Shown here: one piece after another, positions 15,745 to 63,961 of the stretch
Numbering within the stretch: the stretch's first letter is position 1
Layout of the letters: each line of letters starts with the position of its first letter
DNA from: Antedon mediterranea
Lineage: Eukaryota; Echinodermata; Crinoidea; Comatulida; Antedonidae
Reading direction: 5' to 3'
Assembly (NCBI RefSeq): GCF_964355755.1
Contig: NC_092673.1
Location: forward strand, 30,633,001-30,697,000
DNA length: 64,000 nt
Program-made: the position numbers and the translations under genes
The notes under the pieces: generated by a model
The model's database searches: none
What the model saw: only the letters and a program-made list of their open reading frames with translations
What the model was told of the DNA's origin: nothing

Positions 15745-15947
15745 AAACTATAATAATTAGGGCGCTGTGGTTTGATTTAACTAAGGATAATCTAACTTCA
15801 GCTCAAAGAAATCACCTTATATATCGGAATTCTGAATAATAACTGTAAGATCAAGTAAGTAAAAGCGTTTCTGAAAGAGAAAAGAGTACGTTAGTTGAAA
15901 AAGGTCAGTTCTTTTGATCTGGTAAACATCCGAAACCAAATAGAAAA

Positions 15948-17267
15948 ATGTCTAAGCCAGCTGAAAATAGTAGGCCTACCATCATGGCGAATGAGTACCA
16001 TAACAACGGGACTAACAAAGCCAAACACCTACATAACTACCAAGCTAGCAAAAATACACCCGGTGACGTAATCGAAATCGATACTCACACTGAAAGCGAT
16101 CACAAAGAAGATGACGTAATAGCTTCTAAACAAAAGGACCAAATCTTCTCAAGCGTGAAACCTATTTTCTTCAAGGATAGCGATGCACGCGAAAGAAATG
16201 AGGACTTTTTGAGCGAAGAAAAAATATATTTCGCTTTATGTGAAATAATAAATGGAGATAATTTAATAGGAATACAGAAAGTGAAGAACTTGTGGAGAAT
16301 TTATATCAACAACCGTTCCGACAGAGTAAAGATCCTCTCAACAGGACTCAACCTGAATGATAGAAATGTGTTGGTTCACGATATAAATCCGTATCTACCG
16401 GTGAACAACGGCGTTCGTGTACTTGTGAAAGACGTGCCAATATCCGTGCACAACGACGAGATCAGAAATAGTCTACAGCAGTTTGGATGTAAAATAATAG
16501 GAACAATTCAGTATGTAAAATTTCGTATCAACGGAAAATTATCTCGCTTCATTAATGGCGACAGATCTGTGATAGTTGAGCATTTCAAAGGAAGCCTACC
16601 GCGCTTCACTAAAATCAATGGCTTTGGTGCTAGATTATTTCACAAAGAACAGTTAGGCGTTGGTGAGAACAGATGTTTCCAGTGTAAGGAAGTTGGACAC
16701 AAAGTTAACACCTGTCCTAATGCCAAGCCCTACACTTGTCATAGATGCGGAAAAGAAGGTCATATTGCTAGATACTGCAAAGAAGTGGAAATTCCCGACA
16801 AACAACCGCACATAGCAAAAGACATACATTCTGACGTAAGTAACGATGAAAGTGAAGACGAAACAAATGCGATTTTTCGACCAACATCTGGGGAGAAATT
16901 CATCCAAAAAATGTGGAAAAATCTAGTCGAAGACAAAGATAAAGATCTAGGATGGAGTATTGGATGTAGTGATGGAAGCGACAATGAAACCATCGTCAGC
17001 GCCAATGACGATAACGCTCATGCCGCAAGAAGAAAAGATCTAGAGGACACAGCCGAAAACAACATTAGCTATACAAAAGAACATGTAAACCTACAGACAA
17101 GCATCAAGTCTTTTATTAAATCGACACCAAAGATCCATGAAGAAAGCCATATCTCAACCGAAGACAATGAAAACACTAATGAAAATACGAACATAGATGC
17201 CAGCTCATCTAGTTCTATCCAGAAACAGAAAAAAAAAAGGAAGCGCATGAGAAGCAAATCAACATAG
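15948..17267 (+). CDS. LINE ORF1, RNA-binding gag-like protein with two CCHC knuckles
   Basis: 439 residues. The N-terminal 60 residues are polar. A middle segment (about residues 85-240, including RVLVKDVPISVHNDEIRNSL) looks like an RRM-type fold, as found in ORF1 proteins of this group. It is followed by two zinc knuckles, CX2CX4HX4C, at residues 243-256 and 264-277. The C-terminal third is acidic and Ser/Asn-rich, ending in a basic KKKRKRMRSKS stretch that could act as a nuclear localisation signal. The product is expected to coat the element RNA. It is intact; translation of ORF2 probably occurs by reinitiation, since the ORFs do not overlap. Confidence 0.9.
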   Translation: MSKPAENSRPTIMANEYHNNGTNKAKHLHNYQASKNTPGDVIEIDTHTESDHKEDDVIASKQKDQIFSSVKPIFFKDSDARERNEDFLSEEKIYFALCEIINGDNLIGIQKVKNLWRIYINNRSDRVKILSTGLNLNDRNVLVHDINPYLPVNNGVRVLVKDVPISVHNDEIRNSLQQFGCKIIGTIQYVKFRINGKLSRFINGDRSVIVEHFKGSLPRFTKINGFGARLFHKEQLGVGENRCFQCKEVGHKVNTCPNAKPYTCHRCGKEGHIARYCKEVEIPDKQPHIAKDIHSDVSNDESEDETNAIFRPTSGEKFIQKMWKNLVEDKDKDLGWSIGCSDGSDNETIVSANDDNAHAARRKDLEDTAENNISYTKEHVNLQTSIKSFIKSTPKIHEESHISTEDNENTNENTNIDASSSSSIQKQKKKRKRMRSKST

Positions 17268-17355
17268 GGTCAGAATTATCCTTTATCATTATTATTATTA
17301 ATTTATATACCTGTTATTTTTCTGTTTGCATTGAATTGATTTACTATATCTAATT

Positions 17356-20300
17356 ATGGCTAAGCAACAAAATGCAATCTTACATTGTGTATCCTTGAAT
17401 GTAAGAGGACTGCGAGTCAAACAAAAACAAAGAAAAATTTTTAATTGGGCTAAAGACAACAAAATTGATATTTTTCTCATCCAAGAATCTCATCTGACAA
17501 ACATCTTTGTCTCCAACGAGAATTTTCTTTGGGATGGAGATGCTTATCATAGTTTTGGTAGCTCTTTTAGCAAAGGTGTCTCAATATTGATTAAGAAAGA
17601 CCTTCAATACAAACTTATAAAACAACAAATTGACATTAATGGAAGATATATTCTGTTAAAAATTGATATCAATGGTACCCAATACACGTTTGTAAATATA
17701 TACTCGCCAAATGATTCAAAAGTAAGAGGTTCTTTCTTTAATAATATTGAGAAGCAAATTCAAACATTTTCGATCACTGATGAGTATATCATTATCGGCG
17801 GAGATATGAATTGTATTCAGGATAGGCTACTCGATCAAAAAGGTAGCAAAATGAAAACTGATAAATCTGTCTTAAAAATTAAACATCTTATAAATAAACT
17901 GAAACTAGTAGATAGTTGGAGACTTCTAAACAAATTAAAATCACAATTTACTTGGTGTAGGAAATCGGCCAACCTTTTTAAACGTCTAGATTACTGGTTT
18001 GTATCAAAAAGTTTGCATGATACAGGAAACATCGTCTCATGCGATATTAGACCAGCGATTTCTACTGATCACCAAGGAGTTTCCATTAAGATAAATATAT
18101 TTCAAGACTCTCGTGGTCCAGGATTATGGAAATTAAATTCCGATTACTTACAGGACGAACAATTTCTCAACAAAATTAATCAGATAATAGATAGCTGTTC
18201 ACAGCAGTTCTATTTTCTTAATAACATAGAAATCTGGGAACTAATTAAAATCAAAATCAAAGAATTTTCAATCAACTTTGGCAAACTAAAATCGAAAAAT
18301 AGAAATAGAAATAAAGAAAACTTACAAAAAGAAATTCAACAACTAAACGCTAAACTAATGAACAACGATAGAGATGAATATGTGAATGCAGAAATTGAAA
18401 TTAAATCTAAAGAATTAGAGGATATATATGACTATGAGGCAAAAGGGGCTCAAATTCGTTCAAGAGCGAAATGGGTAGAAGAAGGAGAAAAGAACTCCAA
18501 ATACTTCCTTGGTCTGGAAAAAAATAACTGGAAAAGAAAACAAATAAAAAGATTAAAAAAATCTGACGGAACATGCGCCAAAAAAACTAAAGATATCTTG
18601 ATTGAAGAAGTCAAACACTTTGAAAAGTTGTATGCAAAAGAGGACATACAAGCAAATGATATTCAAAATTATTTAAATTTAATAGACGTTCCAAAGTTAA
18701 CACATCTTGAAAAGGGGTTATGTGAAGGAGAATTAACCTCCGTAGAATGCGAAGAAGCGATACGGAGTATGAAATTAAATAAAGCGCCAGGTACCGATGG
18801 TCTCACGGTAGCATTCTATCAGACATTATGGCCCAAGATTGGCGTATTAGTCTGCAATGCTCTCAATCTATGTTTAAAAAATGGAGCACTATCAAATACG
18901 CAAAAAAGGGGAGTAATAAACTTAATATTTAAAAAAGGGGATCTCGAAGACCTAAACAATTGGAGACCCATAACTCTCTTAAACACTGACTATAAAATTG
19001 CCGCCTTTGTTTTAACAAAAAGGCTACAAAATGTTATTAAAACAATTGTGAGTAATGATCAAAAAGGGTACATTAGAGGCCGTTTTGGTGGTGAAAACAT
19101 CAGATTGATCGAAGATGTAATTGAATATATGGATACTAGCAAGTTATCAGGGGCATTATTAAGTTTAGACTTTAGAAAAGCTTTTGACACAGTAGACAGA
19201 ACTTTTCTTGTTAACACTTTGTACCATTTCAATTTTGGACCGTCTTTTATTGCATGGGTCAGAGTTCTATATGCTGAAACAGAATGTATTATTTTAAACA
19301 ATGGTTGGTGCTCAAAAAGCTTTAAAATGTTTAGAGGTATAAGACAAGGTTGTCCTTTATCCGCACTTCTGTTCATCTTGGTCGCTGAAATTATGGCGTT
19401 AAAGATAAAACAGGATAAACTTATTAAAGGTATACTTTTACCAAACCCAGTTGTCGAGGTCAAAATTGCACAACTTGCAGACGACACGGTCTTATTTATG
19501 AAAGATGAGAACAGCATAAAAAAGTGTATTGATGTTGTCATCAAATTTGGTAATGTGTCTGGGTTAAGACTTAACAAAGAAAAAACGAATGCCATGTGGC
19601 TTGGAAAATGGAAGAAAAAGGACAACATATTGGACATTAATTGGATTTCTGACGGTTTTAAAGTTTTAGGTGTTTATATTGGCCATGATAAAGAATTTTG
19701 TTTTGCCAAAAATTGGTCCGAAAAAATCTATTCGTTACAAAACACACTTAGATCGTGGAGAAAAAGAAATCTGACCATTTTTGGAAAAATAATTATCTTA
19801 AAGACGCTGGGCCTGTCAAAACTTGTTTATGTTGCAAGTATTATAGACACGCCTGAAAGTGTTCTAAAACGTGTTGATAACATAATTTTTGACTTTTTGT
19901 GGGATGGAAAAAGAGAAAAGGTTAAACGAGTAGTTCTTATAAACGAATATGAAAGTGGTGGTGTTAAAGCGCCTGATTTCAGGTCACAGGTTAAATCTTT
20001 AAAAATATCTTGGCTTAAAAGATTGTATAACAATGAGGATTCAAAGTGGAAATGTCTGCCAAACACATATTTTAATAGAATAGGCCCAAAAGACATTATT
20101 GATAACATATCATATATTGATAAGAAAAATGCTATTTTTAAAGCCATACCCGATTTCTATAAATCTATACTATGTATTTTAGTCAAACTTAATAGTGGTA
20201 TGACTAAACGTCAATTATGTTATGATGATATATTGCATCAACAACTCTGGTATAACAAAATGATTTTATACAATGACATGTCAATATTTTTTAGAAACTG

Positions 20301-21048
20301 GGTAAGGTCAGGTGTGCGAAATATTAAGGATATTGTAATTGAGAATAGGTTCATTAACGCAAATGAATTACTAGATATGCTTAGGTATAAATCAAACTGG
20401 ATTGCTGAATGGCAAATTGTATTAAACGCAATTCCAAAAGAATGGAAAGAGAAAATCTTTTTAAGGGATAAAAACCAAAAGCACTCAAAAACAACACACG
20501 TTCGATGTTTGAATATGAGTAGCAAACAAATATGTTCTTTCTTTATTAAGGAAAAATGTCTAGAACCATCCAAAAGTAAAACAAAATGGGAAACATATTT
20601 TAACATGGAGAACGATTGGTCTGTAACATGGAAAAGAAAAATTAAAGATATTAAAGATAATAAACTTAAACAGTTGAACATCAAACTATTGCATTGTATA
20701 ACACCTACCAAAAGAAGGCTGTTAAAATGGAAAATAAGCAACACAGATACTTGCCTACAATGCAACGTAGTAGAGGATGATGCCCATTTCTTTTATGAAT
20801 GCACTGAAGTAAAACCCTTATGGGAATATATTAACGTTTACACCATGCACAAATTTGGGATCGAGGCAAATTATCGAAACATTGTACTAGGTACAGGAAA
20901 CAAATATGTAGACCACATGTTCTCTATTGGATGCTTCAGCGTTTACAAGGCACATACTTTGAAAAATGTAAACAAATGGACCGGATCATTGTCTCGTCTT
21001 TTTATGGCGGAAAAAAACAAAAGATCTTACCTTAACCACCTATTATAA
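17356..21048 (+). CDS. LINE ORF2, apurinic-type endonuclease and reverse transcriptase
   Basis: 1230 residues. Endonuclease domain, about 1-245: SLNVRGLR with N15, IQES with E44, IIGGDMN (D150, N152) and STDH with H239, all the expected catalytic positions. A linker coiled segment runs to about 460. The reverse transcriptase has LNKAPGTDGL, NWRPITLLN, LLSLDFRKAFDTVD, FRGIRQGCPLS and the catalytic LADD (D709, D710), followed by a thumb region. A C-terminal CX2CX7HX4C cluster starts at C1133. No frameshift or stop. All key residues are present, so the enzyme should be active. Confidence 0.94.
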   Translation: MAKQQNAILHCVSLNVRGLRVKQKQRKIFNWAKDNKIDIFLIQESHLTNIFVSNENFLWDGDAYHSFGSSFSKGVSILIKKDLQYKLIKQQIDINGRYILLKIDINGTQYTFVNIYSPNDSKVRGSFFNNIEKQIQTFSITDEYIIIGGDMNCIQDRLLDQKGSKMKTDKSVLKIKHLINKLKLVDSWRLLNKLKSQFTWCRKSANLFKRLDYWFVSKSLHDTGNIVSCDIRPAISTDHQGVSIKINIFQDSRGPGLWKLNSDYLQDEQFLNKINQIIDSCSQQFYFLNNIEIWELIKIKIKEFSINFGKLKSKNRNRNKENLQKEIQQLNAKLMNNDRDEYVNAEIEIKSKELEDIYDYEAKGAQIRSRAKWVEEGEKNSKYFLGLEKNNWKRKQIKRLKKSDGTCAKKTKDILIEEVKHFEKLYAKEDIQANDIQNYLNLIDVPKLTHLEKGLCEGELTSVECEEAIRSMKLNKAPGTDGLTVAFYQTLWPKIGVLVCNALNLCLKNGALSNTQKRGVINLIFKKGDLEDLNNWRPITLLNTDYKIAAFVLTKRLQNVIKTIVSNDQKGYIRGRFGGENIRLIEDVIEYMDTSKLSGALLSLDFRKAFDTVDRTFLVNTLYHFNFGPSFIAWVRVLYAETECIILNNGWCSKSFKMFRGIRQGCPLSALLFILVAEIMALKIKQDKLIKGILLPNPVVEVKIAQLADDTVLFMKDENSIKKCIDVVIKFGNVSGLRLNKEKTNAMWLGKWKKKDNILDINWISDGFKVLGVYIGHDKEFCFAKNWSEKIYSLQNTLRSWRKRNLTIFGKIIILKTLGLSKLVYVASIIDTPESVLKRVDNIIFDFLWDGKREKVKRVVLINEYESGGVKAPDFRSQVKSLKISWLKRLYNNEDSKWKCLPNTYFNRIGPKDIIDNISYIDKKNAIFKAIPDFYKSILCILVKLNSGMTKRQLCYDDILHQQLWYNKMILYNDMSIFFRNWVRSGVRNIKDIVIENRFINANELLDMLRYKSNWIAEWQIVLNAIPKEWKEKIFLRDKNQKHSKTTHVRCLNMSSKQICSFFIKEKCLEPSKSKTKWETYFNMENDWSVTWKRKIKDIKDNKLKQLNIKLLHCITPTKRRLLKWKISNTDTCLQCNVVEDDAHFFYECTEVKPLWEYINVYTMHKFGIEANYRNIVLGTGNKYVDHMFSIGCFSVYKAHTLKNVNKWTGSLSRLFMAEKNKRSYLNHLL

Positions 21049-25104: not shown

Positions 25105-26127
25105 TCAAAGTATTGTACATTTTTTACATTTATTCAATCTTTGTAACTTCTTCTCTCGCTTTCTTTCTTTCTTAATTGTCTTTTCTTCTAGTTCTTCATT
25201 CCTTCGCGCAAGTTCGCGCCAAATATCTGTTTCCACGTCTTTGTTTGTCATTCGTTCCATGGCACATCGTAGTTGTTCGGCGCCGGGCCTCTCGTGATAA
25301 TCTTTCCGTAGAAGACTGTTTAGAAGTAGGACTAGGTGAGGGTTAATCCATAGATCAGACGGTAAGACATAATCCATATTGAAAAATATCTCGTAATCCG
25401 CAATTGTCAGATTACCCATGCAGACTACAAGCAGATCACGTTTTACGCCGACTTGTGACGTGTTTATTTGCACTTGTTGTTTCAACATCATTGACGCAAA
25501 TATGGCGCCTAAGGAGAATACATCAGCCTTGTGAGTGTAATGGAAATTTTGAGTCTCAGGAGCTTGGAAAAATGGCGTTCCACAACAAGTTTTCATGTAT
25601 TTCCTTGATATACATTTCTCTTGCGCCGAAGGGTTGAACGTTTGAATGAAGACCTTCGCTAAGCCAAAGTCAGAAATTTTAACCACGGCATCGCCTAGAT
25701 GGTTAAATTCGATAAGTATATTATCAGGCTTCAGATCTCTGTGTACTACGCCTTGTCCGTGAAGAAATGACACACCAGACGACAACTGTTTCATAAAATT
25801 CAAATTGTTCACCATGTCTTTTGGTCTTTGAAGAATAAAATCATTGAGAGTTCCTCCACGACAAAGTTCCATCACTAAACAAAAGTGTTTGCCTTTTTGG
25901 AAGTACTCTTTCAGATTGACAACATTTTCGTGATGTTTAACTTTCAACAAAGCATCGATCTCTTTCATTGCTTCATTCTTTAGCTCTTTAAGTGAGTTAA
26001 AGTTGCTACGCTTAAGAGTTTTGATAGCCCAGGAAGTCCGGCTGTTTTTATCCCAAGCTTTGTAAACCTCTCCACACATGCCTTCTCCCAACTTGTTTTG
26101 AATGGCATAACTTGTTCCAGTACCCAT
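25105..26127 (-). CDS. Serine/threonine protein kinase, PDIK1L/STK35-like, with lipid-anchor signals
   Basis: 340 residues in a single exon. The kinase domain spans about residues 7-305 with every catalytic element: Gly loop GEGMCG (14-19), K36 in WAIK, HRDLKPDN (129-136), DFG (153-155) and APE (189-191). The long insert between DFG and APE and the CGTPFFQAPE sequence resemble PDIK1L/STK35; other families, such as NEK-type, cannot be excluded. The N-terminus MGTGTSY fits the N-myristoylation consensus (Gly2, Ser6). The C-terminus is a charged helix (EELEEKTIKKERKREKK) ending KCKKCTIL, a polybasic stretch plus CaaL box of the geranylgeranylation type. The family is not known to me for prenylation. 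Intronless coding sequence suggests a retrogene or a 5' UTR-only intron. Confidence 0.88.
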   Translation of the reverse strand: MGTGTSYAIQNKLGEGMCGEVYKAWDKNSRTSWAIKTLKRSNFNSLKELKNEAMKEIDALLKVKHHENVVNLKEYFQKGKHFCLVMELCRGGTLNDFILQRPKDMVNNLNFMKQLSSGVSFLHGQGVVHRDLKPDNILIEFNHLGDAVVKISDFGLAKVFIQTFNPSAQEKCISRKYMKTCCGTPFFQAPETQNFHYTHKADVFSLGAIFASMMLKQQVQINTSQVGVKRDLLVVCMGNLTIADYEIFFNMDYVLPSDLWINPHLVLLLNSLLRKDYHERPGAEQLRCAMERMTNKDVETDIWRELARRNEELEEKTIKKERKREKKLQRLNKCKKCTIL

Positions 26128-29100
26128 TGTCGTCTCAGTTAAATTTCTATTTTACAGATCAAATTTGTAAATAAGTCTATGCGTAAAGAGAACAACGGTT
26201 TCGTTACATGTCGTTATTAAATGCGAATTGCGAATCGATACGTTGGCTTCAACAACTATAGAAACAGTACTGAAGTTGAATAATCCGTCAAGGCGCCAAA
26301 TATTTTTCTCGATACAAAACCGTAGTAACGCACGATTACTTCTCCGTTTACGGCCAAATCAACGTTCCGTTTCTTCAAAAAACTAAATAATGAACCAGTT
26401 TTGTTCTGTGGTCACAAAAGTATAATCGAACTTCTCGATAAAGGATTAAGTATAATTTGATCTGGAAGTAAATAATAAGAAATATCCTTAGTGTTGTGAG
26501 TGGTAGTTTACCGAGCCAGCTCTTTCTCAGCCGCTTTTATCTCTGAACCTCTTGAATTTAATTTCCTGAGAGTTAAAACACATTTTCTTATAAGTTTGTT
26601 ACTGTACCTGAATATAGATTCATGAACTTAACGGTAATGTGTTTTACCCGACGCTGTCTCAAATGTATTTATCTTTAGACCTTTTAAAGTTGATTTTCCC
26701 GAGGGTCTAAATGTATTCAAGATTTCGTCTGCCCCTGAAAATAGGCCTAAGACCATGTGCGATAGTTCTGTGTTTTGTGGTTATACTCTACTTTAACTGT
26801 TCTGAAGTTGATTTCCTCGGGGCTTAGCACTTAATGTACACGTGCATCGTGAACACGGTCTCCCGGGGAATCTACGTTGCCTGCAGCGTACATGATGACT
26901 AAGATATTCTCCAAACAAATTTCTATTCTTCACTGTTGAAACAACCGGTTTGCTTAAAAGAAATCCCCAAAAGCTGGACACAAATGTTGCGTATTATGTG
27001 TGGGTCTAACCGTTACCTGTGTTTTTTTCCAATGTAAAGATGATTTCTATATCCAAAATGGACCTCCAAACAATAATAATAGTCACAACTTCATCTAACC
27101 ATAATCCTTAGTACAATGATCCAACGGTGCATATTATTTAACCAATCGTAAAGAAGACGGAAATCGCTTATTTATGCAGACTTTATAAAGTGCTTTATCA
27201 CAGTTCGGCTTGTTTTTTTTTTTTTACATTTATAAAGTTTAAAATGAAATTACTATAGGGAGAAAAACGTCCGTGGGCCTACGTGATAAAAGGAGCATAG
27301 TTACTCAGTTAGTTGGTCAGAATATTATTTGTTTTTTTGTAGTGTATAACGTAAGGGATATTAAAAAGTTTACCTAATCCTAATTTAAATAGCAGATAGG
27401 ATTGAATTTCTCCTGTTCTTCTTCAGACTAAGCTGAAACACTGGAAAACACGGCATTTGCTTGTGATTTAATTGGTTAAAAACGTTATGCCACGTGATAG
27501 GTCAATAAATATTTAAACATTAAAAACTCTGCAGTTTAATTGACGTGCCTTCCCCAAAAGGAAGATGTGAATTTGGCTGAGTGATTGTTACGGTTTTATT
27601 TACTTCAGTTTAACAGATAACAAAAATGTTTTGTACTATTAGAACGGAGAGATTATGCTCACCCGAGTTGAATGGAATAGTCAAAACTTTAAATTCCTCC
27701 TCAGTTCAATTCACAACCATTTACTATTTGTAAATTGGAATGAAATCTTTATGTGTGTGGTCGAAAGTGTACCTTATGTTTTTAAGGTACTTCAATTGAA
27801 AATTTAGTCACATACTTTTTAAACATTTCACTTTAAAGCTGCCACGCGGGTGTCTGGATACTCAGATACTAAGTTTTCTATTTCTGTTACCTGATGCAAT
27901 ACGAAGCCATCCAATTAATAACCTATCTCAATATATTATTATTATATATAGGCCTAACATAGTATAACATTACTTACAAATCATGAATTCCCTCTTTTAC
28001 TATGTTAAAATAATTTTGATGAAAAAATCTTTTAGATTATTTATAACAATGCATAATACCTTCAAGCTCTTTGGAGAAACTTTAGTAACGGAACTTCCGT
28101 TCAATTTCCGTCGATAATTATGTTAGCACTCAAGGGGTGTTCGTATTGCACAAATATTTGTTACATTGGAATGTATTTTGAAGTTGTTTTTTTAGGCTAA
28201 CTTTCTCCCTAATTCAGTGAATGATATCGTTTTTCAATACAATGTTTATGTTTGGTGTAATTAAAGGGTATCTAGAAAACTAATTATCTAGGAAACTTAA
28301 GATATCTTAGTTTTCTAGATCTAGAAAACAAGATATCTTAAGCCTGTTTTCAGCCTACTAGGCAAATTCGCGCGAATTGGAAAACCTAGGTGAAAAAGTA
28401 GGTGAAAATATTAATACGCATGCGTTCACGCGAATACATTCGCCTAGTGGTAAAGATCTTAGTTTTCTAAACACCCTTTTTCTAGACACCCTTTCTAGAC
28501 ACCCTGAATCCAATAAGAGAAAGGTTCTCCAAATAAATCAGCACGAAATAGCTCATAAAAAATCACAAACGAAATTAACTTTATGATTTAAATTGTTTAA
28601 TTTCAATACACACATTATGACAATTGATTCATCCAGTATTTTTGTTTATAATATATTTATGTTACTAAACGTATGCCTACAAATCTATAACTAAAATATA
28701 TATTCTGCATTAAAATAATTAAGATTTCTAAATTCAGTGACACTAAAAATTAAGTACAAAAATACAAATCTATAAAATATTAGACATTCAAGCTAAATAA
28801 TGTCATGATATAACATTTGTTGGTAAAAATTTGCATAGGCCTATTACGAAATTGAAAGAACCGCACCAAATGTGTTGATGGACCGGTTCAACTATCATTT
28901 ACCCAAAGTAGTTTGTTTCATGGGAACAGTTACTATATCGCTAACTTTGTTGGGCAGGACACAACATACTCGGGTAAATAACTAAGCCTGTATTTCTTAT
29001 CGCGGCCCGGTTACCCCTCATGAAACGTCACAAAATAAACATGAATATTCATTAGTCATATTCATAATCTATATATAAATTTACGTAAGGGCATAACTAC

Positions 29101-29983: not shown

Positions 29984-31468
29984 TTAAACATCTTCTGGTC
30001 CTTCAATACAATCTTTGGATGGAACTGTCATTGGAGTAAGTTCATTCTCACAGTCAGCCGATTTAGTATCTTCTTTTGTTTTATGATCATCACTTGAGAA
30101 ATCATTTCCAATGTATATCTTCCTACTGTTCTCTGACACTTGTGGCAACTTTGTCCAACCGTTATGTCTACCATTTTCTTCTGCTTCTTTCGATTTTAGT
30201 TCATTTGGCTCCTCATTGACTGGTTGGTAGGCTCTCTTTGATAGATGTTGCGATATGACGTAGATGAAAACTATAATTGTTCCCTCTATCATGGTCAAAA
30301 TTGCGATCAACAGTGGGACTCTGCAAACCAGATCGGCCTCGGGTTGAGGGTACGATAACTTGGCCATAGTTGTTGCTAAAAGACTGTTTTGAACCCCTGT
30401 TTCAAAAGCGATAGTCAGTGCTTCTGGAGTTTTTCTTCGTGTCACCGTCGCGATGGTGAAACCAGTGATGCCACCGATAAGAGGGAAAATGGCCGCGGCG
30501 GTGTAAACTCGCCAAGATGAGCTGAAAATGAACATCTGCGAAGGAACTCCCAAACTGAATGCTATCACAATTAGACCAAAGGCGAATGGTTTAAGCAGTT
30601 TGACACACAAGTCCGCAAGTTTTGTGAATTTATATAGAATAACGATGCCTATACCAACTGGGATAAGCATCAAAGCAAGTTGCATGGTGAGTGCTGCGTA
30701 CGGTGTCTCTAAAGAGTCACCTTCTTCGACAAAAGGCTTTGTATACAGCATCATATTCAGCGGCATCATTCCAAGTGCTAGGATACTGGAGCAGAACGTC
30801 ATAGTTAGGCTTAGGACAAAATCACAGTCAAGTAGTAAGGTAAAGACATTGCTTAGCCATCCACCAGGACACGATCCATCAACAAGCAACCCGACAGTTT
30901 CTTCTTTCTCCAACGAAACAATGTTCGCTACAGCAAACGCTAAAACTGGCATTATCAAAAACTGACAGACGATGCCTGTGACCACGGCGTACGGTCGTCG
31001 CAACTTCCCCCAGATTATTTTAAGATCCATCTTTGTACCCATAGTTACGTAAGACACGATCATCCAACTTAGCAGCGTGTACGTAAACGCGTAGTCAAGC
31101 ACGCTGGATTTACGTAAAACTTTGACCTGATAATTAATTTCGGACTCGCCATCTGGAAATGTCAGTAAAATCCGAATAGTTCCAATACCAAGCCTCAAAC
31201 CTAAAATTGGTATGTCACCATTTTCCATAACTAAGGTCTGGTCATCATTATCGTCTGGGATAACTTGAAATATGTCTTCATCTATATTTACTATTGTTAT
31301 ATTTGTTTGCTCAATGTTTGATATGTTGATGTTGACATTAGCTATTTCACCTTCCGTGACAAGAAGAAAATCATCTGGAGTTATCGTAAAACCAATCGAA
31401 GAATTGGATTGAGTTGACAGTCCAAAAAGCAGACAGAATACCAGAGCGCAGTAAATTGAACCTTCCAT
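29984..31468 (-). CDS. SLC10 family (bile-acid:sodium symporter-like) transporter, SLC10A3/A5 type
   Basis: 494 residues, entire coding sequence in one exon; an acceptor (GTTTTATTACAG) abuts the ATG, so a 5' UTR intron is likely. Signal peptide at about 1-20 (IYCALVFCLLFGLS). Next comes an extracellular domain of about 105 residues with N-glycosylation sequons (NSS, NIS, NIT), a layout typical of SLC10A3 (P3) and SLC10A5 rather than of ASBT/NTCP. Then come about nine membrane segments from residue 130 to 420, including SCPGGWLSN and the ETGVQNSLLATTM motif of the sodium-binding core. The cytoplasmic tail is acidic. Substrate of this subgroup is not established. The E(T/S)GxQN motif and the SCPGG motif are both intact, so it is probably functional. 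Confidence 0.9.
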   Translation of the reverse strand: MEGSIYCALVFCLLFGLSTQSNSSIGFTITPDDFLLVTEGEIANVNINISNIEQTNITIVNIDEDIFQVIPDDNDDQTLVMENGDIPILGLRLGIGTIRILLTFPDGESEINYQVKVLRKSSVLDYAFTYTLLSWMIVSYVTMGTKMDLKIIWGKLRRPYAVVTGIVCQFLIMPVLAFAVANIVSLEKEETVGLLVDGSCPGGWLSNVFTLLLDCDFVLSLTMTFCSSILALGMMPLNMMLYTKPFVEEGDSLETPYAALTMQLALMLIPVGIGIVILYKFTKLADLCVKLLKPFAFGLIVIAFSLGVPSQMFIFSSSWRVYTAAAIFPLIGGITGFTIATVTRRKTPEALTIAFETGVQNSLLATTMAKLSYPQPEADLVCRVPLLIAILTMIEGTIIVFIYVISQHLSKRAYQPVNEEPNELKSKEAEENGRHNGWTKLPQVSENSRKIYIGNDFSSDDHKTKEDTKSADCENELTPMTVPSKDCIEGPEDV

Positions 31469-33015
31469 CTGTAATAAAACAAAAATTAAATATAATTTAA
31501 CATCTTATTATCGAGACGAACATTCAATACAGTCGCCAAGAAGCGAAGGGAGGCAGAAGGATGTCGTTTCGATATGAATCATACTTGAAGCAGTCCAGTA
31601 GGCCTAGAATAGACGCAATTGCCACATGTGACCTAATAATAGTCAGCCCACCAGCGTTATACGTTGTAACAATGATAGCATAACACAATTATGTTGATCG
31701 TAAGATTTGAAATTAGGCCTGAAAAGTGGACAATATATGGTTACAGATAGTGTCTAATAAATAGACTATAACATAATAACGTCTGACATCACAACACAGA
31801 TACTATAATTAAAGAAACTAATGTACAATGAAAATGTTCTGTTACATTAGAAAATGTATATTTTTACTATGACCACCGGTTAACGTCTGCCTATGGCATC
31901 CAATGGGAGGCTCGGACATGGCTGGCTGTAATTGACACTGTAGGATAGATGTAGGCAGATGTTCGTTAACGAGTTGAAACGGTCAAAATATGAATGTTGT
32001 CACGGAAGCTTTGATATCATGGTTTATTATGATATGAGTCATATTGTTCCAACTTAAGTCATATTAAGTGCACTACGCTGTTTTGTTGATATTATCGTTT
32101 TGCTCCGTTAATCATTCAGTTTTTTTTAAATATATGTTAGGGTTACGGTAATTATCCAAGCGGCGACGAAATTGTATGGATTATCACTAGACTGGACGAT
32201 AACGTAAACCAACCTTTTTCAAATCTAAATGATGAAAAGTTACATCTTAACGAGTGCACCCGATGCATCCGTAACACACGATTATCGATATAGTGTAGGC
32301 CTAATAGTATATCTTGTTATCTAATGCCTAATCAAATAAATATAAATATTGTAATACATTTGTCACATGTGAAGTACATGTGACGCCTGTGTCTAGCCCT
32401 TAACATAATAATGATAAAAGCATCACATGTGAAACACATGGGATGCTGTATTCCGAGTTTGCCTATAATACGGTACAGCAACAATTTATGTTTGTCAAGT
32501 TAGATGAGAATCGGTGTTTTTTGCGTCATCGATAAAGTTTTCACGCAGTAACATTTTTATAGACTTGAATCTGCCTCTGCTTCCTTGAGTTTAATACACG
32601 TAAGATCTCGATGTTCCATATGTGGAGATACATAGACTGAGAATCAATTTGAGTTTTATTGCATTTGTAGATATTCATGCATTAACGTTCTATTTTCTGA
32701 TTGAATTTGCGAAAGCTGATAAATATGATGCATATTATCATTATCAACAGTGTTCAACTGAAAATGTCTATGTCTACAGTAGACCCCGATAAGAAGATAG
32801 GCCCATGGGACAGAAATACCAATTACGAACAACATAACAGTGAGCTTATACAGTAATTAACGTCTTTGTGCGTAGGAGGATATCATCAATGTATTGATGC
32901 TCGTTTTCCGTTTAATACATTGACTGAAAAATAAAGATACGCGTTAATGCTTGGATGCACACACCATAATAAATAGGCGTACTCTACAAGCGCGCGCTAA
33001 CTTGTTTCTGGATGT

Positions 33016-60955: not shown

Positions 60956-62193
60956 GAGTTCCCCTATTTGCTATTATATGTACACCAAGATGTATATAGA
61001 AAAATGCAGAAAAGCATTTATCTTTGTATGCCTCTCTAACTCACTACACAGTATGATATTGCTTATTGCATTTATTTTTCCTTTGTAACTCCTGTACCGT
61101 TTGGCAATTTACTCGATATAAATTTGTACTGTGCATTTATTATCACAAAATAAATAACACTTATTTTTCTATAAAAATATCTTTATTATCAAGCGTTTTA
61201 GTGGAAGAGTTTTAAATACAATATGTATATGAAGGATTAAAGATTAATATATTGAATATAATATCTATAAATAATAAAATGAAAACTAAATAAACACACA
61301 GACTTCTATTGTTATAAATGTATTAAGTACAGGATATGATCAATGCCACAAATTGACTCAAGTAGACTGGAAGAAAATAATTATGTTTGTACCTTCAATT
61401 CCTGAAAATAGAAATATGTATCTTAACATTTGGATGCCCCTTGATTGTCATGGATCATGTCAACGTGCTGCGTTTTTCAAAGACATTTTACTGGCAAGCA
61501 AACGTGTATTTTATAACTACAATACTGCAAAGTAGCGTTGCGTTCGGGAGCGAAGCAATTGGTCAGGTTTGTGCAAGACATTTGACCAATTATGGATGGT
61601 CTTTTATGGATTCCATTTCCACTTTGAACCTACATAAAAATTCTGTTTTTGTCATACCAACTATATAGGAAACATGCCTGGTCTTAATTGTATAACTACT
61701 GCATGTTATTGGTTGGCAATACATCTGACTAATAATGCATGTCTTTTCATAATTGTGCTCAACTACTCTTTTTTCTTTACAGAATTATACTTAAGCAGGT
61801 TTCCTACTCATCTGTTCCATATAAAGTAATATTATTATTCTACATACGTAAGGCCTACATATAGACCCTGAAACATATTATTTTAAAGATGGTGTTCTTC
61901 TGACGCACGTATTAACCACTGTGTTAAGATCAGTGAAACTCGCATGTTTTATACACAGTATTACTATCTTCTAAAGCCTACATATAGACCCCGAGACATA
62001 TTATTTTAAAGAGGGTGTTCCTCTGATGCACGTATTAACCACTACTGTGTTAAGATATGTGAATTCACTCTATTCATTGTCATTATGTCCTGTGCAAATG
62101 CATCAGACCACTATCCTTCGTTCCATCAGAAGAAATTTGACACATTTCAGGTTTAAAGTAGCTAAAAACATCCTCAAACACAGCATTACTCTG
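60956..62193. other. Convergent intergenic region, ODR4 and MLLE gene 3' sides
   Basis: ODR4 AATAAA at about 61149. A direct duplication with about 125 bp period: 61848-61937 and 61973-62062 share CCTACATATAGACCC, CATATTATTTTAAAGA and CACGTATTAACCACT. No gene seen. Confidence 0.5.
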
Positions 62194-63961
62194 TCAACTT
62201 GAAGTGTTCAAGAGAGCCTTGTACGCCATGTCTACCTTCTCCTTAAGAAGCTGCGGACAGGTTAGCAAAACCTTTAAACTTTCGACATTCATTTCCAACA
62301 GCATTCCTGTAAAACATAAATAATGAAACTACACAAGCAAGAAATAAAAGAGAAAGAAATTTCACTCATGCATGCTTGTTCATCTTACTAGTTTTTCATT
62401 TGACCAAAAACTGGATCAGAAAAAAAAAAATATTTACCTGAAAAAATGTAATTTAAACAAAAAAATACTGTCAGACAATGAGTTTTTGGTTAAAATTAAT
62501 TGTTTAAATCCTATTAAAAGTCTGATTTTATTAATCTTAATTAATTTTCGTGTTTTTGGGGGACAATACATCTTTAAGAAAAAAAAGATCATAACAAACC
62601 TGTTATCTTGGCAGCTAAATCTGGATATATTTCAACTACTTTATCAAACAACTCCTCCCCAATCTCATCCTTTCCTCTATCTGTCACCTGTGATCTGTTT
62701 TCATTATTGTCTAGACACGCCTTGGCTTTACTTATGGCAACGTCAAGGTCTTTATTGGACAACAGCAATTTTTCAATCACATCACAATCCAATTCTAGCA
62801 GCATACCTGAAAATGAGCAATTTATATAATAATAAAAGTTTACAGACGGGTACCTGGTAGGCTAAAAAACAACTATGTTGATTCAGTGGCTTAACGACTG
62901 TGAGTGCTCACTGACTAAACCCAGGGGCCCCCAAAGCTTATGGGGGACCTGTGCAGTGCCCAGGGGAAAAAAAAGGAAAAATAATATGTCAACAATGGCT
63001 AAAAACACCCAAGGCCTCCAGCGTTGGAGGGCCACTTAGGGTTCCTAAACCAGGAGCTTCAGTCAGGGATGTGCTGATTGCTAGTTATTATTAAAGCCAT
63101 TAAAATTATTTATGTTTGTTTTGCTTTACCACGGACGAAATATAAGGAGGGTTATTTAATTATCAATGTTGTTCTAAACAATAGAAAAACTGTGTATCCG
63201 GAACTACCCTTTAAGTTTAATGTATATAGTGTATATATATAAATCCAAAGGCAAATTACTGAAAAAATGACAATGCTGTGGGTATCAGTGGCTGGATCTC
63301 AATGGAGATACAAAAATAAAAGCGAAAAGCTAAATCAAAACGAGAAGTAAAACAGCCAGAAAAGTTAGAAGAGCTTTTGGGCAACACTAGCCCTTCATCA
63401 GTGCAACAGTATATAACAGTTTACCAGTAATTTTTGCACAATTATCTTGTTCTTGGTCTTCTACCCGTTGATAGAGTTTCTCTGCGAGTTCCTCATTATC
63501 AAAACTTTTATAATCAGAACGTCTACAGATAAATAAAAAAGAATTGATTTATTTTTTTACAACCAACAGTGAAACATCATTTAAAAAAAAAATAAAAACG
63601 TATCAATATTTTATAAAAAATAGAGTAGAATGCCTCATTTGGGACACCTTTATTCTGTGGACACTTCTCCATTAACTCAGGAAACACCTAGGCCTAGTAG
63701 GGTAAAGGTGCTGGTGCATTTTTGGCATCTTTAATATAGATAGGGGTTCTACCTTTTCAAAGCACCCTGTGCTGCCTTTACTTGAACCTGGAGCAATTTC
63801 TTGTCCTGTAGAATTCTTAGTACCTCATTGTTACCCATCTCCAGCAACATCCCCGTCACCTGCGCTGCCTCATCTGCTGTAATATTTAGGCTAACAACTA
63901 GCGAATACAGGTGGTCACCAAGGACGTCCTTACGCTCTGGAATTGCACCACACTTCTGCAT
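62194..63961 (-). CDS. Stand-alone protein of three tandem MLLE (PABC) domains
   Basis: Four exons (minus): 63753-63961, 63425-63522, 62600-62806 and 62194-62306; GT-AG and in phase, 208 residues. It consists of three MLLE domains and short linkers. Domain 1 at about 9-68 (DHLYSLVVSLNI ... VTGMLLEMGNNEVLRIL), domain 2 at about 80-140 (EKLYQRVEDQ ... KITGMLLELDCDVIEKLL), domain 3 at about 148-206 (EELFDKVVEI ... KITGMLLEMNVESLKVLL). TGMLLE is the signature by which poly(A)-binding protein and UBR5 MLLE domains hold PAM2 peptides. No RRM or HECT part is present. The ATG has an in-frame TGA three codons upstream in the same exon, whose likely acceptor (CTCTCTACAG) is at 63984, so this looks like the true start. 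Donor of exon 1 (GTAGAA) is weak. Role inferred: a scaffold or competitor for PAM2 proteins. Confidence 0.87.
62562..62578. mobile_element. End of a TTAA-type MITE in the last MLLE-gene intron
   Basis: GGGACAATACATCTTTAA, identical to the right terminus of the element at 5972-6522. Other end not found. Confidence 0.45.
63245..63345 (-). repeat. Repeat family C, inverted copy in the MLLE gene intron
   Basis: Complement of the 52150-52260 copy: GGTATCAGTGGCTGGATCTC, then AATGGAGATAC and AAAGCTAAATC. Confidence 0.7.

Follow-up and report, generated by a model that had tools for sequence, protein, structure and literature searches.

At the end of the 64-kb window (the whole stretch of DNA that was analysed, 64,000 nucleotides of Antedon mediterranea), a small gene occupies positions 62194-63961 of the minus strand. 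Its four exons join to 627 nt and encode 208 codons plus a stop. Four in-phase exons for 208 residues at these coordinates had been put forward in the original prediction, and the model was borne out: all introns are of the gt-ag type and the frame is free of breaks. The gene, referred to here as the MLLE-triplet gene, has RPL28 upstream on the opposite strand, arranged head to head with a start codon approximately 1.46 kb from the MLLE-triplet ATG (Pfam Ribosomal_L28e, E = 1.7e-34), and ODR4 downstream, convergent and tail to tail (Pfam ODR4-like, E = 1.8e-36). The features of the gene, in the order of transcription, are as follows.

63753..63961, minus strand, exon 1: start codon and the entire MLLE1, with a gt donor in phase 2 at its end (Pfam MLLE, 59.9 bits)
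63523..63752, minus strand, intron 1: separates MLLE1 from MLLE2; gt-ag, phase 2
63425..63522, minus strand, exon 2: N-terminal half of MLLE2, as far as the G of TG/MLLE
62807..63424, minus strand, intron 2: within MLLE2, at the Gly of TG/MLLE; gt-ag, phase 1
62600..62806, minus strand, exon 3: C-terminal half of MLLE2, a short linker and the N-terminal half of MLLE3
62307..62599, minus strand, intron 3: within MLLE3, at the identical residue and phase as intron 2; gt-ag, phase 1
62194..62306, minus strand, exon 4: C-terminal half of MLLE3, followed by the TGA stop
61182..61187, minus strand, possible poly(A) signal: first AATAAA 3' of the stop, approximately 1 kb downstream and beside the ODR4 3' end

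MLLE1 contains no intron, while MLLE2 and MLLE3 are each cut at G583 (PABPC1 numbering) in a common phase. As the intron phases are 2, 1 and 1, skipping of exon 2 would break the frame. The codon usage of the joined frame amounts to 0.144 bits per codon. Of 400 segments of 627 bases placed at random across the whole 64 kb, with genes and training genes included, 11 attain this value in the best of their six frames; the joined frame is coding-like by this measure, but the measure is not decisive. Possible poly(A) signals of the MLLE-triplet gene (61136-61187, minus strand) and of ODR4 (61149-61154, plus strand) lie within approximately 50 bases of one another, hence the 3' ends of both mRNAs may overlap. 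The scan was for AATAAA alone, which is frequent in the local stretch anyway (17 found versus 9.2 expected).

MLLE, whose usual place is the C-terminus of poly(A)-binding proteins, is a domain that docks peptides and folds as a bundle of four or five helices. Using hmmscan, the whole protein was found to match Pfam MLLE (PF00658) over three stretches (E = 3.3e-45), and each domain exceeds the cut-off of 27 bits when cut out singly (MLLE1 59.9, MLLE2 44.9 and MLLE3 63.2 bits). TGMLLE is present in MLLE1, MLLE2 and MLLE3 alike. This HMMER comparison with PF00658 confirms the three predicted MLLE signatures, and at the level of Pfam the added claim that the protein holds nothing else also stands, the remaining matches up to E = 1 being either to a related PABC profile (PF23182, 29.1 bits, cut-off 27) or below cut-off (HTH_9, E = 0.068; for MLLE2 alone also CUE, E = 0.091). 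The PF23182 profile, the PABC of plant AtC3H46, fits best at residues 78-136, corresponding to MLLE2; however, for MLLE2 alone the general MLLE profile gives the higher score (44.9 versus 22.7 bits), the comparison being by profile only. No RRM was found by Pfam within the 208 residues, nor was a HECT domain found after the MLLE domains, as the stop codon directly follows MLLE3 and no HECT match is listed nearby. All 24 distinct sequences among the solved-structure matches (E up to 1) are PABP or UBR5/HYD chains. AlphaFold2 with MLLE1 alone as a single sequence gave a poor model (pLDDT 66, pTM 0.32) with two helices, of which one spans 40 residues, and in which the MLLE fold is not apparent.

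A search of the genome for MLLE domains yielded four matches at E up to 0.001 from 10 candidates, belonging to three genes: the MLLE triplet (two matches), PABPC and UBR5, the latter two names being assigned from domain order. PABPC, located on C1, has RRM matches at 38,418,334-38,421,605 followed by an MLLE at 38,423,435. UBR5, also on C1, has an MLLE at 18,501,740 followed by HECT matches at 18,503,174 and 18,505,390. As neither the halves of MLLE2 nor the second half of MLLE3 were listed in this search, it may have passed over other MLLE genes whose domains are interrupted by introns. When the MLLE-triplet protein itself was used as the query, eight matches were obtained, consisting of its four exons, PABPC (E = 0.041), UBR5 (E = 0.154) and two weak matches on C10 (E = 0.225) and C3 (E = 7.9), both of which we take as chance.

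The MLLE-triplet protein thus shares its domain with PABPC, which in contrast combines RRMs with one MLLE, and with UBR5/HYD, a HECT ubiquitin ligase with one MLLE ahead of its HECT matches. The MLLE of the genome's PABPC is 41% identical to MLLE3, 38% to MLLE1 and 34% to MLLE2, and that of its UBR5 is 45% identical to MLLE3. Overall, MLLE1-3 are 30-45% identical to the MLLEs of human and of this genome's PABPC and UBR5 (32-45% for the genome's own) and 32-41% identical to each other, counted over 56 core columns with two inserted residues of MLLE1 left out. The MLLE introns also differ, PABPC being interrupted between K606 and V607 and UBR5 between 575 and 576, versus G583 in MLLE2 and MLLE3 (PABPC1 numbering). 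We therefore rejected the MLLE triplet as a part of PABPC or UBR5, since both are located elsewhere, have RRM or HECT matches of their own and carry their MLLE introns at different positions. A recent copy of either MLLE was likewise rejected, given the differing intron positions, the low mutual identity of the domains, and the 30-45% identity to PABPC and UBR5 compared with 77% between the human and this genome's PABPC MLLEs. Judged from these comparisons, the gene is either old or fast-evolving. In a tree of nine domains, MLLE2 and MLLE3 were grouped weakly (FastTree support 0.835, IQ-TREE bootstrap 48). The intron common to both, in residue and phase, suggests that a unit already containing the intron was duplicated in tandem to give these two domains.

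Beyond this genome, no relative was confirmed among the 4 and 3 pattern matches in viral contigs. Of 34 pattern matches in the bacterial collection, one locus was confirmed (L013:3001-3165). Its MLLE is PABP-like, resembles the wheat domain by eye and lies at the end of a contig assigned by binning to a gammaproteobacterium; because this contig is probably chimeric or a contaminant, the locus was not taken as a relative.

The capacity of the three domains to dock PAM2 peptides was assessed from their pocket residues. As the glycine in contact with the Phe of PAM2 we took G563 of PABPC1, the presumed equivalent in the domain alignment. Pocket A was scored over eight positions, G563 being added to the seven that one study gives for human PABPC1: Q560, E564, L566, F567, K580, T582 and L586, with L569, T576, L597, P600 and L603 forming pocket B (PMC7356810). 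That a glycine makes the contact with the PAM2 Phe is stated in a second study (PMC9249222). In pocket A, MLLE3 agrees with human PABPC1 at 7 of 8 positions (Gln to Asp at 560), which equals the count for the genome's own PABPC. MLLE2 retains 5 of 8 (Gly to Ala at 563, Gln to Glu, Phe to Tyr) and MLLE1 4 of 8 (Lys to Gln at 580, Glu to Asp, Gln to Asp, Phe to Tyr); human UBR5 and this genome's PABPC likewise carry Tyr at 567. Pocket B agrees with PABPC1 at 2-3 of 5 positions in MLLE1-3 and at 2 of 5 in each of the genome's PABPC and UBR5. With the most canonical pocket-A residues, MLLE3 is the best candidate for a PAM2 site of this protein. The three PAM2 docking sites originally predicted are hence upheld in part: MLLE3 has a near-canonical pocket, but those of MLLE1 (Gln for Lys580) and MLLE2 (Ala for Gly563) are altered, which makes triple docking doubtful. 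MLLE2 could still bind PAM2, an Ala in place of the Gly being a milder change than the Ser and Arg of the fungal protein Rrm4 discussed below.

Candidate partners for such a site were sought using a PAM2 profile. The genome search returned 14 places up to E = 10, six of which pass the Pfam PAM2 cut-off alone. A seventh passes jointly with a neighbouring place, the two overlapping motifs forming a single locus, so that the seven correspond to six loci. The double overlapping motif is one that we take to resemble eRF3. With PAM2-like motifs over cut-off at six loci, PAM2 partners seem to exist in this genome.

Taken together, the gene model, the three domains over cut-off, the lack of RRM and HECT, the 7 of 8 canonical residues in the MLLE3 pocket and the PAM2 motifs in the genome lead us to favour, at evenly balanced confidence, the MLLE-triplet protein as a compact, free-standing PAM2 receptor of 208 residues that is RNA-free and might serve as a hub or a competitor, mainly via MLLE3. 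With neither an RNA-binding nor a catalytic part, the protein would act as a receptor for PAM2-type peptides. Poly(A)-tail factors that carry PAM2, eRF3 among them, would dock on MLLE3, and more weakly or with other specificity on MLLE1 and MLLE2. In receiving them, the protein would either compete with PABPC and UBR5 for PAM2 partners or join two partners. Expression of the protein, its binding of peptides, and competition or bridging by it are what we infer from the gene.

The nearest parallel in domain number is Rrm4 of Ustilago maydis, which likewise has three MLLE domains, C-terminal in that protein. In Rrm4, MLLE1 and MLLE2, with Ser and Arg in place of the canonical Gly, bind neither PAM2 nor PAM2-like peptides (PMC9249222), and the essential MLLE3 adopts an enlarged, seven-helix form that takes PAM2-like peptides (PMC12852828). 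An adaptor of the Rrm4 kind is the alternative that we regard as somewhat unlikely though worth serious attention: MLLE3 would bind PAM2 or PAM2-like peptides, MLLE1 and MLLE2 would bind non-PAM2 partners, and the protein would couple an mRNA regulator to some other partner instead of competing with PABPC. The graded pockets found here, canonical in MLLE3 and altered in the other two, repeat the hierarchy of Rrm4, where MLLE3 is the one domain with the canonical Gly and a working site (PMC9249222, PMC12852828). However, this order could be a coincidence, and the link of Rrm4 to RNA is made by its own three N-terminal RRMs (PMC12852828), which have no counterpart in the MLLE-triplet protein. 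Since MLLE3 of Rrm4 has seven helices, a form not seen here, and takes PAM2-like peptides, the parallel is a loose one. The spacing also differs, the Rrm4 domains being modelled at 446-530, 571-629 and 665-791 (PMC9249222) in contrast to the approximately 13 residues between the Pfam stretches here. In addition, MLLE1 and MLLE2 are 30-38% identical to the PABPC and UBR5 domains and thereby nearer to canonical MLLEs than those of Rrm4, which are 17 to 32% identical to their modelling templates (PMC9249222). The comparison gave no evidence of common descent of the two triplets.

An improbable alternative is that the locus is a duplicate of MLLE exons that is decaying or has no function. The divergence of the domains is compatible with this, as is the finding that the longest branch in both trees is MLLE2. 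However, all 208 codons are open, the splice sites are all intact and all three domains pass the Pfam cut-off, with TGMLLE kept in each despite the 32-41% mutual identity; a neutral copy of such age would be expected to be broken.

The limits of the gene bear on whether it is the C-terminal part of a larger gene with further exons outside the window. A pyrimidine-rich, acceptor-like ag (ctctctacag) ends 22 bases 5' of the ATG, making a 5' exon plausible, and a 5' untranslated exon of the MLLE-triplet gene is possible via this site. An in-frame TGA is located between this acceptor and the ATG (63970-63968, nine bases 5' of the start codon), hence no coding exons can be joined in this frame through ctctctacag. 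A second possible acceptor, a cag inside codons 1-2, is poorer, with no pyrimidine tract ahead of it. On the gene's strand, six upstream open frames of 54 to 83 residues, chosen among those listed in the first 3.8 kb of a flanking stretch that overlaps the window and runs past 64000 (L005), gave no Pfam match over cut-off, the two weak ones having E values of 0.06 and 0.14. No further MLLE exon exceeded the inclusion threshold in the window and 19.5 kb beyond 64000 (4649 open stretches); only these four exons were recovered, by a local profile built from the three domains of this gene and those of the genome's PABPC and UBR5, exon 1 being matched twice, with L005 overlapping the window. The gene is located at 30.695-30.697 Mb of its chromosome, C4, where the nearest listed RRM match is at 28.19 Mb (at least 108 matches in the genome, a lower bound, with 150 of 216 candidates scored) and the nearest listed HECT match at 26.19 Mb (at least 106 matches, again a lower bound, with 118 of 118 candidates scored). 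With RPL28 on the other strand in the upstream region in addition to these observations, a larger gene is very improbable. The prediction of a separate gene with no RRM or HECT part is accordingly in agreement with the Pfam results, the distances to listed RRM and HECT matches, the RPL28 and ODR4 neighbours, the upstream TGA and the upstream frames; as for RRM exons beyond 64000, there were none among the frames examined.

Access to the MLLE of PABPC is thought to be a point of competition for translation, deadenylation and release factors. If the PAM2-receptor reading is correct, a natural protein made of MLLE domains only would come ready to act as a competitor or connector, and through it the docking of peptides could be studied cleanly apart from RNA binding and ubiquitination. 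More tentatively, and with less probability than we accord to the receptor itself, the MLLE triplet might represent a gene family conserved in animals whose products, RNA-free and multivalent PAM2 receptors, draw partners away from PABPC and UBR5 or bring two such partners together, such that competition for MLLE sites would itself be regulated. Among the matches listed for multi-MLLE, MLLE-only and PABC proteins in open-access full text, and within the portions accessible, Rrm4 was the only protein with several MLLE domains and there was no animal case; that no animal protein of this kind had been described, as originally supposed, held true among the open-access papers listed. The MLLE-only triplet is a new architecture of a known domain, and unnamed database entries with the same architecture may well exist.

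A number of other features were observed in the window and the genome. A retrotransposon of the non-LTR type is located at 15918-21048 on the plus strand of the window with both frames open, one encoding 449 residues with a zinc knuckle and the other, from 17359, encoding endonuclease and reverse transcriptase domains in 1229 residues. Long open frames on the minus strand encode a protein kinase (25105-26151) and a sodium/bile acid symporter (SBF; 29984-31504). A search of the assembly for COX1 gave no match. Within the HECT listing, 13 of the at least 106 matches consist of the C-terminal part of the domain in open frames of exactly 93 residues, distributed over several chromosomes (for example C1:19518787, C3:19229336 and C9:15663294), a pattern that would suit a repeat or mobile element as the carrier. 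A few kb past RPL28 (L005:8055-8914), an apparent tandem array of a short unit was seen, with several frames open on both strands.
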